From assembly GCF_002855555.1 (NCBI RefSeq), contig NZ_PKRT01000001.1:2508001-2572000 (forward strand): a stretch of 64,000 bases of DNA. The letters run 5' to 3'. The notes beneath the pieces were generated by a model. That model made no database searches. It was given only the letters and a program-made list of their open reading frames with translations, and had not been told where the DNA came from. This document shows positions 14,589-58,725 of this stretch, one piece after another (the stretch's first letter is position 1; each line of letters opens with the position of its first letter). This stretch comes from Novosphingobium sp. TH158 (GTDB taxonomy: Bacteria > Pseudomonadota > Alphaproteobacteria > Sphingomonadales > Sphingomonadaceae). Made by a program: the position numbers and the translations under genes.

Positions 14589-15575
14589 ATGCAGATTGCG
14601 GGAAACACGTTCGTCGTAACCGGGGGCGCCAGCCTGATCGGAAGCCACGTTGCCGACCAGTTGCTCGCGGCCGGGGCCGGAGAGGTCGTGCTGCTCGACA
14701 ATTTCTCGCTCGGGACGCCGGAAACGGTGGCGCATCTGGAAGGCGATGCGCGCGTGCGGCTGGTGCGCGGCGATATCCTGCGCATCAATGACCTGTACGA
14801 TGCCTTCAAGGGTGCCACGGGCGTTTTCTCGATCGCCGGCTTCCTCACCCTGCCATTGAGCCAGAACCCCTCGCTGGGGCTGGCAGTCAATGTCGAAGGC
14901 CAGGTCAACGTGTTCGAGGCGGCGCGCTATGCCGGGGTGAAGAAGGTGGTCTTCTCCTCCTCGATCGCCTGTTACGGCGAGCCCGAGAGTGATGCGCTGA
15001 TCGACGAGACCTTCCCTGCCAACCTTGTCAGCTACCAGCCGGGATCGATGCTCTATTCCTGTTCCAAGCTGATCGGCGAGGCGCTGTGCAAGCTCTATGC
15101 CCAGAAGCACGGGATAGAGGCGGTCGCGCTGCGCTATTCCACCGTCTATGGCGAGCGGCAGCACTATCGCGGGGTCAACGCGCTCTACATCATCCAGAAC
15201 TATGACCGGATCGTGCGCGGCGAACGTCCGACGCTGCCGGGCGATGGCTCGGAAGTGCACGATTACATCCACGTTGCCGATGTTGCCCGGGCCAATGTCA
15301 TGGCCATGGCGAGCGATGCCAGCGGCGAGGTGTTCAACGTTGTCTCGGGCGTCGAAACCACGGTGAAGCGCATCACCGAAATCCTGCAGGAGATTACCGG
15401 AAGCAGCCTTGAACCGCTTTACGAGGACGATCCGACTGCGGTGAAGGCCACGTCCAGCACCAGCCTGCGTCTCAGCCGCGAGAAGATCGGCAAGGCCATC
15501 GGCTGGGAGCCGCAGGTTTGCGTGGAAGAGGGGATCGCCCGGCTGGTCCGCTGGATCGTGGCGCAGGGACGATGA
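14589..15575 (+). CDS. NAD-dependent epimerase/dehydratase family protein
   Basis: 328 residues from the ATG at 14589 (MQIAGNTFVVTGG); an upstream ATG at 14559 lies inside the promoter palindrome and is rejected. Extended-SDR features are TGGASLIGSH at the dinucleotide site (the middle Gly of the usual GxxGxxG is Ser), FSSSIACYGEP, and YSCSKLIGE with catalytic Tyr and Lys. Acts on a sugar nucleotide or another carbonyl substrate; context with PrpF and a tricarballylate-type flavoprotein argues for a small-acid role. Its stop overlaps the PrpF start as ATGA, so translation is coupled. Confidence 0.85.
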   Translation: MQIAGNTFVVTGGASLIGSHVADQLLAAGAGEVVLLDNFSLGTPETVAHLEGDARVRLVRGDILRINDLYDAFKGATGVFSIAGFLTLPLSQNPSLGLAVNVEGQVNVFEAARYAGVKKVVFSSSIACYGEPESDALIDETFPANLVSYQPGSMLYSCSKLIGEALCKLYAQKHGIEAVALRYSTVYGERQHYRGVNALYIIQNYDRIVRGERPTLPGDGSEVHDYIHVADVARANVMAMASDASGEVFNVVSGVETTVKRITEILQEITGSSLEPLYEDDPTAVKATSSTSLRLSREKIGKAIGWEPQVCVEEGIARLVRWIVAQGR

Positions 15576-16624
15576 GCCTGCGCCGCCTGCCCGCAAGCTA
15601 CTGGCGCGGCGGCACATCGCGCGGGCTGGTGTTCCATGCCCGCGACCTGCCGGCCGAACGCGCCGGGTGGGACGCGATCTTCCTGGCGGCCATGGGGGTG
15701 CCCGACAGCAACGGGCGCAATCTCGATGGCATGGGCGGGGGGCTGTCCTCGCTTAACAAGGTCTGCGTCATCGGGCCGTCGAGCCATCCGCAGGCGGATG
15801 TCGATTACACCTTCGCCCAGTGCGCGGTGAAAGAGGCGCGGGTCGATTATGGCGGCAACTGCGGCAACATGTCGGCAGTGGTCGGCCCCTTCGCGGTCGA
15901 GGAGGGGCTGGTCGCCGCGCCTGCCGATGGCGAGGCCGTGGTCCGCATCCATAACACGAATACCGGCAAGATCATCGCCGCTCGGTTCCCGGTCGAGGGC
16001 GGCAGGCTGGCCAGTGCAGGCGATCTGGCGATTAACGGGGTCGATGGCCGGGCTGCGCCGATCCGGCTCGAATTCCTCTCCCCCGGCGGCGCGAAGACGG
16101 GTGCCCTGCTGCCGACCGGGAAGCCGGTGCAAAGCCTTGAGGGGCTTGCCGCCAGCCTGGTCGATGCGGCCAACCCCACCGTGTTCGTCACGGCCGAAAG
16201 CATGGGCAAGACGGGCAGCGAAAGCCCCCAGGCGCTTGAGGCCGACGCGCAGTTCCTGGCCCGCATGGCCGCCATCCGCGAGGCCGGGGCGCAGGCCATG
16301 GGCATTCCCGGATCGGCGAGCGTGCCGCTGGTGGCAATGGTCGCGCCGGGCGACGGCTCGTGCGACATTGCCGTGCGGATAATCTCCATGGGCCAGCCGC
16401 ACCGTGCCACGCCGATAACCGGCGCGATCTGCCTGGCCATCGCCTGCCGCATTCCCGGCACGCTGCCGCACGGCCTGTGCGCTGCGGCGGAAGGACCGAT
16501 CCGGATCGGCCACCCCTCGGGCGTGACCATGGTCGATGCGGAGCTGGACGCGCAAGGGCAGGCCCGCCACGGCGCGGTCTACCGCACGGCGCGGCGGCTT
16601 TTCGAAGGTTTCGTGCTGTTCTGA
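15572..16624 (+). CDS. PrpF-family isomerase (aconitate/oxalomesaconate type)
   Basis: 350 residues from the ATG at 15572, overlapping the epimerase stop by 4 bases. Family signatures: YWRGGTSRGLVFHARDLP at the N-terminus, GGLSSLNKVCVIG, VDYGGNCGNMSAVVG with the Cys/Asn pocket, and HNTNTGKII. PrpF enzymes shift the double bond of 2-methylaconitate; GalD, in the same family, tautomerises 4-oxalomesaconate in gallate breakdown. The downstream flavoprotein that resembles tricarballylate dehydrogenase favours an aconitate-like substrate. The exact acid cannot be told from sequence. Confidence 0.88.
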   Translation: MSLRRLPASYWRGGTSRGLVFHARDLPAERAGWDAIFLAAMGVPDSNGRNLDGMGGGLSSLNKVCVIGPSSHPQADVDYTFAQCAVKEARVDYGGNCGNMSAVVGPFAVEEGLVAAPADGEAVVRIHNTNTGKIIAARFPVEGGRLASAGDLAINGVDGRAAPIRLEFLSPGGAKTGALLPTGKPVQSLEGLAASLVDAANPTVFVTAESMGKTGSESPQALEADAQFLARMAAIREAGAQAMGIPGSASVPLVAMVAPGDGSCDIAVRIISMGQPHRATPITGAICLAIACRIPGTLPHGLCAAAEGPIRIGHPSGVTMVDAELDAQGQARHGAVYRTARRLFEGFVLF

Positions 16625-16697
16625 TCGCCCCTGCGGTTTTACGGCGACAGCCAATCGGATAAATGGCGCCTTGGGCGTATCATTAAGGAAGTCGAGC

Positions 16698-18194
16698 ATG
16701 GCAGAGGACAAGAACTGGGACGTCATCGTTGTCGGAGCGGGCAATGCCGCAATCTGCGCCGCGCTTTCCGCGGCGGAACAGGGCGCCAAGGTCCTCGTCC
16801 TCGAAAAGGCGACCAAGGAAGATCGCGGCGGCAACTCCACCTTCACCGCCGGCGGCTTCCGCTTCTGCCACAATGGCGTGGAAGACCTGCGCACCGATAT
16901 CCTCGATGACATGACCGAGGGCGAGTACGAGAGCATCGGCAACCTGCCGCCGCTTTCAGAAGACGAATTCATGGCCACCCTGATGAAGGTGACCGAGCAT
17001 CAGGCCGACGAGGACCTGGGCCGCATCCTCATCGGCCAGTCGCGCGAGACGATGCGCTGGATGCGCACGCACAAGATCCGCTTCATCCCGATGTTCGGCC
17101 GCCAGTCGTTCAAGATCGATGGCAAGCACCACTTCTATGGTGGCGTGAATATCGAGGCGGTCGGCGGCGGCTGGGGCCTGGTCGACATGCTGATGCAGGC
17201 GGCGGAGCGCATGGGCATCACCGTGCTTTACGAAACCGGCCTGCGCGAGCTGATCCAGGATGAAAGCGGCGCGGTAACCGGCGTGCGCGCTTTCGGGCCG
17301 GATGGCTACGTGAACTTCATGTCGAAGGCCGTGGTCCTGGCCTGCGGCGGGTTTGAATCGAACCCGGAAATGCGCGTGCGCTACCTCGGGCAGGGCTGGG
17401 ACCTGGCGCGTGTGCGCGGCACCCAGCACAACACCGGCGATGGCATCAACGCCGCGCTGAAGATCGGCGCCCGCCCGCACGGTGGCTGGTCATCGTGCCA
17501 CGCCGTGCAGTGGGACATTTCCGCGCCGCCCTATGGCGACCGCGTGGTGCTCGACAATTTCCAGAAGCACTCCTACCCGATCGGCATTGTCGTCAACATG
17601 GAGGGCAAGCGCTTCATCGACGAGGGCGCGGACTATCGCAACCACACCTATGCCAAGTACGGCAAGGAAGTGATGAAGCAGCCGGGCCGAGCCGCCGTGC
17701 AGATCTTCGACGAGAAGACCCATGCCAACGTGCGCGACGAGTACCGCATCCGCGAAGTGACCAAGGCCACGGCAGACACGATCGAGGAACTGGCGGTAAA
17801 GCTGGAAATCGACGTCGAAGGGCTGAAGAAGACGATCGCGGAATTCAACGCCGCCTGCCAGCCGGGCGAATACAACCCCTCGATCCTCGACGGCGTCTGC
17901 ACCAAGGGGCTGGAAGTGCCCAAGTCCAACTGGGCGCTGCCGATCGATAAGGGGCCGTTCCACGGCTATGTGGTCACCTGCGGCATCACCTTCACCTTCG
18001 GCGGCCTGAAGATCGATACCGACGCGCGGGTGCTGGACCTGTGCGACAAGCCGATCCCCGGCCTCTATGCCGCGGGTGAGCTGGTGGGCGGGATCTTCTA
18101 CCAGAACTACCCCGGTGGCACGGGCCTGCTCAACGGTTCGGTCTTCGGGCGGCTTGCCGGCAGGAACGCGGGCCAGATGGCTATCGCGGCCTGA
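16698..18194 (+). CDS. FAD-dependent oxidoreductase, tricarballylate dehydrogenase (TcuA)-like
   Basis: 498 residues from the ATG at 16698. The FAD site is DVIVVGAGNAAICAALSAAEQGAKVLVLEK; RGGNSTFTAGGFRF and the C-terminal GLYAAGELVGG, YPGGTGLLNGSVFGRLAG are the fumarate-reductase/TcuA flavoprotein pattern. Such enzymes oxidise tricarballylate to cis-aconitate, or 3-ketosteroids in another branch. It follows PrpF by 73 bases in the same direction. No TcuB electron carrier is adjacent, so the acceptor is unclear. No signal peptide: cytoplasmic. Confidence 0.85.
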   Translation: MAEDKNWDVIVVGAGNAAICAALSAAEQGAKVLVLEKATKEDRGGNSTFTAGGFRFCHNGVEDLRTDILDDMTEGEYESIGNLPPLSEDEFMATLMKVTEHQADEDLGRILIGQSRETMRWMRTHKIRFIPMFGRQSFKIDGKHHFYGGVNIEAVGGGWGLVDMLMQAAERMGITVLYETGLRELIQDESGAVTGVRAFGPDGYVNFMSKAVVLACGGFESNPEMRVRYLGQGWDLARVRGTQHNTGDGINAALKIGARPHGGWSSCHAVQWDISAPPYGDRVVLDNFQKHSYPIGIVVNMEGKRFIDEGADYRNHTYAKYGKEVMKQPGRAAVQIFDEKTHANVRDEYRIREVTKATADTIEELAVKLEIDVEGLKKTIAEFNAACQPGEYNPSILDGVCTKGLEVPKSNWALPIDKGPFHGYVVTCGITFTFGGLKIDTDARVLDLCDKPIPGLYAAGELVGGIFYQNYPGGTGLLNGSVFGRLAGRNAGQMAIAA

Positions 18195-18222: not shown

Positions 18223-18909
18223 TCAATCCTTGTTGAACAGCGCCTTCCACGCCACCGCGCCCAGCACGCCGCCGAACAGCGGGGCCAGCCAGAACAGCCA
18301 CAGCTGCCCCAGCGCTGCATTGCCCGCGACCACGGCAACGCCGCTTGACCGTGCCGGGTTGACCGAGGTGTTGGTCACCGGGATCGAAACGAGGTGGATC
18401 AGCGTCAGCGCCAGGCCGATGGCCAGCGGTGCCACGCCGGCAGGCGCATCGCGCCGGGTCGCGCCAAGGATGACGATGAGGAACCCGGCGGTCAGGATCG
18501 CCTCTGTCAGGAAGGCAGAGGCCATCGAGTAATTGCCCGGCGATAGCGCGCCATAACCGTTCGAGGCGAAGGAGCCGGGCAGGAAGCCGGCCTTGCCCGA
18601 GGCGATCATCAGCAGCGCGCCTGCCGCCAGGACCGACCCGAAAACCTGCGCGAAGCAATAGGGCAGCACGTCCTTCATCGGAAAGCGCCCGGCAACGGCC
18701 AGGCCCAGCGACACGGCCGGATTGAAATGGCCGCCGGAAATGCTGCCCAGCGCATAGGCCATGGTCAGCACCGAGAGGCCGAAGGCCAGCGATACGCCGG
18801 CAAAGCCGATTCCCGTTTCCGGAAAGGCCGCGGCGAGGATGGCGGAACCGCAACCGCAGAACACCAGCCAGAAGGTGCCGATAAGCTCGGCGGAAAGTCG
18901 CTTGATCAT
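18223..18909 (-). CDS. aqpZ: Aquaporin Z
   Basis: 228 residues with six membrane spans and both half-helix motifs, [10 protein letters not shown] and [19 protein letters not shown] and the short loops are typical of water-selective AqpZ, not glycerol facilitators. Mediates rapid water flow across the inner membrane. Its ribosome-binding region lies against a strong hairpin (18919-18946). It ends 28 bases past the convergent flavoprotein gene. Confidence 0.93.
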
Positions 18910-18918
18910 AGGCCTGCT

Positions 18919-18946
18919 CCCCTGATCCCGAACACGGGATCAGGGG
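18919..18946 (-). promoter_or_regulatory. Perfect 12-bp hairpin just upstream of the aqpZ start
   Basis: CCCCTGATCCCG pairs exactly with CGGGATCAGGGG across a 4-base loop. In the aqpZ transcript the 3' arm ends in AGGGG, immediately followed by AGCAGGCCT and the ATG at 18909. The Shine-Dalgarno-like AGGGGAG is therefore half buried in the stem. Could be a translational switch, or the end of an upstream terminator. Confidence 0.6.
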
Positions 18947-19034
18947 AACGAATTGCACAGGTCATGCGGGCGAGTCAGGCCCGAATTATGGCGCAATAGC
19001 AGGCAGTTGACCCAGATTGGGACGGTGGCGCGGA

Positions 19035-20696
19035 TCAACCCCGCGCCGCGCCGCCCTTGCCGCCGCCGAAGCGGCGCTTGGCCGGGAATCCGCCGCCATT
19101 GCCGCCGGCGTTGCCGCGCTGCTGGCGCGGTGCGCCATCGCGACGGCCTTCGCCGCCCTGCGGACGACGCTCGCCCTCGCGGCGCGGCTGGCGATCGCCC
19201 TGTCCGCGGGTGTCGCGGCGGGTGTCGCGGGTTTCGGCATCGGGCGAACCGACGGGATCGAAGCCGGAGCTGCGCGGGTTGCGCCAGGCATCGCGGGCAT
19301 GGGCATCCCGGCTGCGCCCGTCGAGGCCCTGACCGCCGTTCGCGCGGTTGTTGTTGCGCGGCCGTTCGCCGCGTTCACCACGCTCGCCGCGTCCGCCATG
19401 GGCGGGACGGTCGGCCGGAACGCCACGACCGCGGCGGTGCTGGCGTCCGTCGCTGCGACCTTCGCCGCGTCCGGGGCCACGTTCCTGGCGCGGGCTGGGA
19501 TCGGTCGGCTCGGTGCGCTTGGCAGGGGCGGGCAGGCGCGCGGCTTCCTTCTGGAAGTCCTCGGGCAGCGGCAGCGGCATCAGCTTGACCTGCGTCAGCC
19601 GTTCGATGTCGCGCAGGTAGGGCTTCTCGTCGGGTGCCACGAAGCTCACCGCAACGCCGTCCGCCCCGGCGCGCGCCGTGCGACCGATGCGGTGGACGTA
19701 CTGTTCGGGCACGTTCGGCATCTCGTAGTTGAACACGTGGCTCACGCCCGTCACGTCAATGCCGCGCGCGGCGATATCGGTTGCCACCAGCACCGGGCAA
19801 GCGCCCTTGCGGAAGGCATTGAGCGCCGCGGTGCGCTGGGCCTGGCTCTTGTTGCCGTGGATCGCCGCAGCCGTGACACCCGCCGTGGCAAGGTGGCGCA
19901 CTACGCGGTCCGCACCGTGCTTGGTGCGGGTGAACACCAGCGCCCGGTCAATCGACTGGTCGGCAATGCCCGCGCGCAACTTGAGCGTCAGCAGGGCCTG
20001 CTTTTCGGACTGGTTGATGTGGGTGACGAACTGGTCCACCCGCTCTGCCGTGGTCGCCTGCGGCGTCACTTCCACGCGCACCGGGTTGTGGATGAACTGC
20101 TTGCCAAGATCGGCAATCGCCTTGGGCATGGTGGCCGAGAAGAACAGGCTCTGGCGGTCCTTCGGCAGCAGCGCGGCAACGCGCTTCAGCGGCACGATGA
20201 AGCCCAGGTCCATCATCTGGTCAGCCTCGTCGAGCACGAAGATCTCGACGTTGCGCAGCGTCAGGGCGCGCTGGTCGATCAGGTCGAGCAGACGTCCCGG
20301 CGTGGCGACGAGCACGTCGCAGCCCGGCACCAGGGCGCGCGCCTGCTTGCCCACCGGGATGCCGCCGAACACGCACTGGACCGAGAGGTTCAGGTACTTG
20401 GCATAGCCGCGCATGTTCTCGGCGATCTGCGCTGCCAGCTCGCGCGTCGGCGAGAGGACAAGCATGCGGCAGGAGGCATTGCGGCGCGGCTGCGGATCGG
20501 CTGCCAGCCGGTGCAGCGAAGGCAGCGAGAAGGCAGCGGTCTTGCCGGTGCCGGTCTGGGCAATGCCCAGGATGTCGCGGCCCTGAAGCAGTGCGGGGAT
20601 CGCCTGCTGCTGGATCGGGGTGGGGTCGGCATAGCCCTTGGCGTCAAGCGCACGAAGGAGGGGCTCGGCCAGGCCAAGGTCGGAAAAATAGGACAT
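19035..20696 (-). CDS. rhlE: DEAD-box ATP-dependent RNA helicase, RhlE type
   Basis: 553 residues. The core helicase (about 1-375) shows Q motif PTPIQQQAIP, AQTGTGKTAAF (Walker A), PTRELAAQI, TPGRLLDL, VLDEADQMMDLGF (DEAD), SATMP, ATDIAARGIDV and HRIGRTARAG. The last 175 residues are a disordered tail rich in Arg, Gly and Asn with repeats such as GERGERGER, which in RhlE proteins binds RNA and aids cold growth and RNA turnover. It is preceded by a long leader (about 280 bases to the next gene) with a possible hairpin, consistent with post-transcriptional control. Confidence 0.93.
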   Translation of the reverse strand: MSYFSDLGLAEPLLRALDAKGYADPTPIQQQAIPALLQGRDILGIAQTGTGKTAAFSLPSLHRLAADPQPRRNASCRMLVLSPTRELAAQIAENMRGYAKYLNLSVQCVFGGIPVGKQARALVPGCDVLVATPGRLLDLIDQRALTLRNVEIFVLDEADQMMDLGFIVPLKRVAALLPKDRQSLFFSATMPKAIADLGKQFIHNPVRVEVTPQATTAERVDQFVTHINQSEKQALLTLKLRAGIADQSIDRALVFTRTKHGADRVVRHLATAGVTAAAIHGNKSQAQRTAALNAFRKGACPVLVATDIAARGIDVTGVSHVFNYEMPNVPEQYVHRIGRTARAGADGVAVSFVAPDEKPYLRDIERLTQVKLMPLPLPEDFQKEAARLPAPAKRTEPTDPSPRQERGPGRGEGRSDGRQHRRGRGVPADRPAHGGRGERGERGERPRNNNRANGGQGLDGRSRDAHARDAWRNPRSSGFDPVGSPDAETRDTRRDTRGQGDRQPRREGERRPQGGEGRRDGAPRQQRGNAGGNGGGFPAKRRFGGGKGGAARG

Positions 20697-57804: not shown

Positions 57805-58629
57805 ATGTCGGTAATCAACACCAATATCGGCGCGCTGCGCGCCGCCAACGCATCGACTCAGGCCGCGAACATGCTCGGCACGGCGATGCAGCGCCTGTCG
57901 ACCGGCAAGCGCATCAACACGGCCAAGGACGACGCCGCAGGCCTCGCCATCTCCACCTCGATGACCGCCCAGATCAACGGCATGAACCAGGGCGTGCGCA
58001 ACGCCAACGACGGCATCAGCCTTGCCCAGACGGCAGAAGGCGCGTTGAACGAGGTTACCAACATGCTCCAGCGTGTCCGCGAACTGGCCGTGCAGTCGGC
58101 CTCGGGCACTTACCAGAGCGCAGACCGCACCAACATGCAGGCCGAAGTCACCTCGCTCACCACGCAGATCAACTCGGTGCTGACCGACACGAAGTTCAAC
58201 GGCAACGCCCTGTTCTCGACCACGGCGGGCACGGACCTGACCTTCGACATCCAGGCCGGCGCGAACTCCAGCGACGTGATCACGCTGACCTCGACCGCGA
58301 TCGACGGCGGCAACATCGACGCCACCGCGCTCGACGTGACGACCGCTGCGCTTGCCACCACGACCATGGCGAACGTCGACCTGGCCCTGGCGGAAGTTGC
58401 TGCCACCAACGCAGGCTTCGGTGCAGGCGAATCGCAGCTCCAGTCGGCGGTGAACAACCTCACCTCGAACGCGACGAACCTTTCGGACGCCCGCAGCCGC
58501 ATCATGGATGCCGACTACTCGACCGAAACCACCCAGATGGCGAAGGCCCAGATCCTCAGCCAGGCATCGACCGCGATGATCGCGCAGGCCAACCAGAGCC
58601 AGCAGAACGTCCTGTCGCTGCTGCGTTAA
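57805..58629 (+). CDS. fliC: Flagellin
   Basis: 274 residues, a short flagellin with almost only the D0/D1 domains. [16 protein letters not shown] to the first helix, [30 protein letters not shown], then [31 protein letters not shown] is the N-terminal D0-D1 helix set. The C-terminal part ends [44 protein letters not shown]. The variable middle is only about 85 residues, Thr/Asp-rich. The only structural filament gene in the window and the only plus-strand gene in the cluster. Followed by two strong terminators, suited to high expression. Confidence 0.96.
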
Positions 58630-58641
58630 GGCAAGGCTTCC

Positions 58642-58666
58642 AGGCACCCGTCCCTTCCGGGTGCCT
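58642..58666 (+). terminator. First terminator after flagellin
   Basis: AGGCACCCG and CGGGTGCCT form a perfect 9-bp stem with a 7-base loop, 12 bases after the stop. The T-tract is short (TA then CC), so it may only slow polymerase or protect the mRNA end. Confidence 0.6.
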
Positions 58667-58693
58667 TACCCTGTCCCTGCGGGGCAGGAACTG

Positions 58694-58725
58694 GCCCGGC
58701 GGTCGCCCCCCGACCGCCGGGCTTT
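58694..58725 (+). terminator. Second, strong terminator after flagellin
   Basis: GCCCGGCGGTCG and CGACCGCCGGGC make a perfect 12-bp stem with a loop of five C, followed by TTTC. The two tandem stems would end the highly expressed flagellin transcript before the opposite-strand genes. Confidence 0.7.

Follow-up and report, generated by a model that had tools for sequence, protein, structure and literature searches.

The aquaporin gene aqpZ in the stretch of Novosphingobium DNA analyzed here (64 kb, the window) has its Shine–Dalgarno (SD) sequence inside a perfect, very stable hairpin that is predicted to keep ribosomes from the site. We tentatively read this structure, with a probability of roughly 45%, as a lineage-specific leader hairpin that would passively block the SD and damp aqpZ translation, given that both arms are transcribed. 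The reading draws on folding predictions, on the rarity of such a structure among the other gene starts of the genome, and on its absence from the aqpZ leaders of the related genomes compared.

A perfect hairpin over the ribosome site of aqpZ

The gene lies on the minus strand at 18223–18909, with its ATG at 18909, and encodes an uninterrupted protein of 228 aa that scores 354 bits with NCBIfam NF003838.0, whose cut-off is 256. The product is an aquaporin Z of the ordinary type, and the genome holds one AqpZ match only. The next gene upstream, also on the minus strand, encodes a DEAD-box RNA helicase (19035–20696), RhlE-like by its best NCBIfam models (RhlE2 and RhlE, both below their cut-offs), and ends 125 bp before the aqpZ ATG. 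On the other side, a gene for a TcuA-type FAD tricarballylate dehydrogenase (16536–18194; NF006130.0) converges on aqpZ and is preceded by an open reading frame that we take to be PrpF-like (15518–18194 for the whole stretch). A promoter scan of 18600–19400 found no sigma-70-like promoter.

The hairpin is a perfect 13-bp inverted repeat on the minus strand (18918–18947), with arms TCCCCTGATCCCG and CGGGATCAGGGGA separated by the 4-base loop TGTT. An earlier note on this DNA had rightly recognized the hairpin and its 4-base loop, but had given the stem 12 bp and placed it at 18919–18946. Folded as RNA, the structure is predicted to extend to 15 pairs (14 Watson–Crick and one G-U; 18916–18949, minus strand), with an energy of −30.5 kcal/mol for the hairpin alone at 37°C. 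The SD-like AGGGGAG (18917–18923, minus strand), correctly seen by that note at the end of the stem, stands 7 nt 5′ of the ATG and not the 9 claimed, a figure that results from counting from 18919. Its GGGGA lies within the 13-bp stem, and its final G falls in the stem extension. Directly 5′ of the ATG, AGGCCT (18910–18915, minus strand) pairs with GGGCCT (18977–18982) in the minimum-energy structure; this outer 6-bp helix is weak and may be a chance pairing.

The 111-nt leader as a whole had a predicted energy of −46.1 kcal/mol (z = −3.6), a fold equaled in one of 200 shuffled sequences, and 61 nt of the plus strand reached z = −5.4, with none of 200 shuffles as good. Across the leader from −81 to +51, the mean unpaired probability of GGGGAG was 0.0016 at 10°C, 0.017 at 37°C, 0.023 at 42°C, and 0.069 at 70°C. 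When the leader was cut to −30 to +30, as for a transcript that begins within or past the 5′ arm, the SD became about half accessible (0.45). By prediction, a stable local stem 5′ of the start codon takes up the SD bases, as in SD-sequestering hairpins, and folding supports the earlier suggestion that the stem overlaps, and should hide, the aqpZ ribosome site.

Predicted effect on translation

The closest quantitative yardstick comes from the MS2 coat-protein hairpin (de Smit and van Duin), in which, as in aqpZ, the ribosome site is paired in a local hairpin adjoining the start codon, and for which the block is expected to scale with stability. In that series, as tabulated in PMC9894550, a hairpin of −10.5 kcal/mol had a measured relative expression of 0.03, and the aqpZ hairpin is predicted to be about 20 kcal/mol more stable than this mutant. 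With the SD buried by a stem far stronger than the −10.5 kcal/mol hairpin, a transcript that includes both arms is expected to be poorly translated whatever the growth temperature. The two cases differ in that the aqpZ start codon lies outside the hairpin, and in that the aqpZ hairpin occurs in a single genome and has a predicted function only.

In the mechanism that we propose, an aqpZ transcript spanning both arms would bury the SD in the 3′ arm of a helix of about −30 kcal/mol; 30S subunits would then seldom reach the site, and AqpZ synthesis would be slow and more or less steady. We infer here that both arms are present in the transcripts, that the block operates in cells, and that no signal opens the stem. 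Occlusion of the SD is likely as physics, to judge by the model. Against a working block, the hairpin would be irrelevant to any transcript that began within the 5′ arm or downstream of it, and so strong a block would nearly silence the sole AqpZ match, an odd fate for an uninterrupted gene. If the block does work in cells, it would amount to a clean and natural SD lid of very high stability over an uninterrupted gene, and it would offer a useful test of how far a perfect helix silences translation and of whether an upstream open reading frame (uORF) or a helicase relieves it. The picture of aquaporin regulation would stay unchanged unless an opening signal were found.

Rarity within the genome and chance expectation

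We compared the hairpin with a 464-kb sample of its own genome, made up of 20 stretches of 20 kb and the 64-kb window. The sample contained eight perfect hairpins of at least 11 bp, including that of aqpZ, and two of at least 13 bp. Random sequences of the same total length yielded on average 0.10 (order 1), 0.15 (order 3), and 0.15 (order 5) perfect hairpins of at least 13 bp (20 runs each), or ∼0.02 when rescaled to 64 kb; three further order-1 runs produced no hairpin of 12 bp or longer. A cruder control restricted to the window (30 runs), in which nested stems were counted more than once, gave, per 64 kb, 0.07 hairpins with a stem of 13 bp and 0.03 with one of 14 bp. With either control, roughly one or more such hairpins would be expected over the 2.98-Mb genome, so chance has to be reckoned with for a find picked from many windows. 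The chance of one falling within 40 nt 5′ of any start is a few hundredths by our own arithmetic, which assumes ∼2900 genes.

Leader properties also set aqpZ apart. Among 159 SD-bearing starts in the 464-kb sample (aqpZ included; starts and genes in the sample and for the leader counts were chosen by simple rules, with no gene finder, and the counts are approximate), the aqpZ leader was the most stable from −45 to +5 (−32.0 kcal/mol, where the median was −12.7 kcal/mol) and had the least accessible SD (0.001, where the median was 0.47). An accessibility below 0.02 was found at only two of the 159. The hairpin is exceptional for its own genome, yet not beyond a rare accident.

Comparison with the aqpZ leaders of the genus

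At the protein level (E ≤ 1e−60), 71 aqpZ places turned up in 66 of the 195 genus genomes searched, and all 71 leaders were compared; stems were counted only if unbroken, with loops of 3–10, and reaching −16 to −4. A single leader, that of the window, had a stem of more than nine Watson–Crick pairs over the SD, which means that the stem is not a shared regulatory element. Conservation of the stem in relatives, which the earlier note had itself named as one test of its proposal, was thus missing from the other 70 leaders. No homologous leader was found among the 71 compared, and no covariations were counted; the conserved structure with compensatory changes that marks a riboregulator was not seen among these genus leaders, nor did we find a close relative with an intermediate state of the hairpin.

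Weaker pairing was less unusual. Stems of nine pairs, unrelated in sequence, occurred in two other leaders (L133 and L208), and stems of at least seven Watson–Crick pairs in nine of the 71, the window included. The two nine-pair stems reach the edge of the SD at −11 and −12. By predicted energy from −60 to +30, the window (−38.5; median −25.7) came only fourth of 71, behind −45.6 (L149), −41.3, and −38.8; an aqpZ leader can thus be strongly folded without having the 13-bp stem.

Alternative explanations

The hairpin might instead belong to the helicase gene upstream, as a terminator-like or 3′-end stem of its transcript (a stable end remaining after Rho-dependent termination would be one such case), with the SD overlap a side effect of a crowded intergenic region. 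We consider this unlikely. The hairpin does share its strand with the helicase gene and lies 86–119 nt past the stop of that gene, and five of nine helicase relatives with a readable stop (L160, L161, L166, L167, and L168) have a stem of at least nine Watson–Crick pairs starting no more than 50 nt past it; in those five, however, the stems are nearer the stop and of different sequence, and the other four have none. The genome sample also has other hairpins near gene ends: out of the seven other perfect hairpins of at least 11 bp, three were scored as intergenic, at distances of 11, 24, and 34 nt from the end of the preceding gene, and one of the four scored inside a rough open reading frame follows a flagellin-like gene by 64 nt. 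The sequence past a gene ending at 58629, which we take to be flagellin-like, carries two perfect hairpins (9 and 12 bp; 58642–58722), the second of which has a TTT tail and is terminator-like.

Intrinsic terminators share with the aqpZ hairpin the G+C-rich stem, the tetraloop, and the setting in an intergenic gap, here downstream of the helicase gene. Unlike them, it is not followed by a T-run, whichever strand it is read on, and it sits exactly on the SD of the next gene. The missing T-run weakens the earlier note's own alternative, that of a stray terminator-like stem.

Passive blocking by the hairpin would also be relieved if translation were coupled to an upstream frame. A possible 19-codon uORF (18906–18965, minus strand) runs through the entire hairpin and shares an ATGA with the aqpZ start, in which its TGA and the ATG overlap, a geometry known from coupled genes. 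Ribosomes on such a uORF would open the hairpin as they passed and then reinitiate at the overlapping ATG, and the arrangement found, spanning the hairpin and ending at the start codon, is the one that coupling calls for. We nevertheless regard coupling as quite improbable. The 20 nt before the uORF start hold no SD-like motif, the leaders compared above offer no homolog in which conservation could be judged, and a comparable uORF occurs at 10 of 85 other starts in the sample with 100 nt of gene-free upstream DNA (nine with the same ATGA overlap), so the aqpZ uORF is not significant alone. Going further, the hairpin could be a true gate, with aqpZ off unless ribosomes on the uORF or the nearby RhlE-like helicase melt it, in which case aquaporin synthesis would follow leader-peptide translation or helicase level; we give this stronger version very little credence.

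The palindrome could also act as DNA rather than RNA, as a dyad serving as the operator of an aqpZ regulator, and its symmetry is perfect across 30 bp directly 5′ of the gene. Its 22 specified bases have a single place in the genome at up to three mismatches, which led us to reject a dispersed element, a REP-type repeat, or an operator family. REP-type palindromes are likewise perfect and intergenic, but they are dispersed, whereas this one has a single genomic copy. At up to one mismatch, the 396 genomes of the order that we searched contained it in its own genome only, with no match in the other 395; at up to two mismatches, three of 119 genus genomes matched, its own included, and the other two sites had unequal arms. 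A looser 16-base core did occur at 32 genomic places against two for a backwards control, a control that we judge biased since it contains CTAG. This tetranucleotide is rare in bacteria. However, 14 of the 15 best core places fall in stop-free frames of at least 185 codons (a loose test, which the hairpin site passes too), and the adjoining genes, the helicase and the TcuA-like dehydrogenase, include no regulator. We hold an operator to be very unlikely.

Mobile elements were searched as well: no viral contig had an exact match to the palindrome, and a 185-base query against plasmids (E ≤ 10) hit 43 records (21 from Shigella and five from Escherichia), with the matches listed, 10 of the 43, all at the aqpZ coding start. 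The leader alone as query returned four records, all short and chance-like.

Finally, that the hairpin is a regulated switch, an RNA thermometer or an osmotic sensor of aqpZ translation, is scarcely credible: the SD is indeed sequestered in the leader of a water-flux gene, but the stem is perfect, very stable, and closed from 10°C to 70°C in the model (GGGGAG unpaired at 0.002–0.023 between 10°C and 42°C, with no opening of the SD at physiological temperature), a comparable stem is absent from 70 of the 71 genus leaders, and Rfam gave no match near a gathering score. The structure-based translational switch put forward in the earlier note accordingly finds no support, and nothing in the sequence points to the osmotic response that it had in mind.

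Relation to known systems and possible origin

RNA thermometers of the ROSE and fourU types resemble the aqpZ leader in having the SD paired in a leader hairpin. Their helices are imperfect and melt close to physiological temperature; the aqpZ stem, in contrast, is perfect, does not open in the model at temperatures up to 70°C, and has no near-threshold Rfam match. The two Rfam matches within 18600–19300 were both far below their gathering scores and were rejected. Our literature search found no paper joining aqpZ with Shine–Dalgarno, nor one on an SD-sequestering stem-loop in Novosphingobium.

As to its origin, a perfect palindrome confined to one genome is consistent with inverted duplication by template switching, and we suppose that the hairpin arose through a local mutation of this kind. 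Template switching that perfects inverted repeats has been described for Escherichia coli quasipalindromes (PMC7202029). A search for a sister sequence of the hairpin found none.

AqpZ phylogeny, leader motifs, and gene neighborhood

In an AqpZ tree of 88 rows, in which the placement of long rows is unsure, the window protein forms a long branch (0.62 changes per column) beside a 48-row clade (fork support 92/47); it is perhaps fast evolving or acquired. The sequence GGGGAGCAGGC just 5′ of the ATG is common to the window and to three other leaders (L010, L139, and L140), with parts of it in others of their group. We considered an ancestral leader and did not take the likeness as homology, given that the 48-row clade to which this group belongs has the window protein as a neighbor and not as a member.

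A Novosphingobium clade (L010, L138–L140, L147, and L191–L194) keeps GCAACCA directly 5′ of the SD. By eye, some of its leaders have short possible SD stems, TCCCC/GGGGA in L010, L191, and L194 and CTGCTC/GAGCAG in L138; their registers differ, and from the sequences this is not a clear covariation. The 5′ part of these leaders may be promoter.

A DNA search of the 195 genus genomes with the helicase–aqpZ–TcuA stretch recovered, among the matches listed, the helicase and TcuA genes in separate pieces only. Two further genomes of the genus also have aqpZ and an RhlE-like helicase gene on one strand, ∼0.5 kb apart in G186 (L145) and ∼2.8 kb apart in G204 (G204:C1:3250012-3254695); in both, aqpZ precedes the helicase, the opposite of the order in the window.
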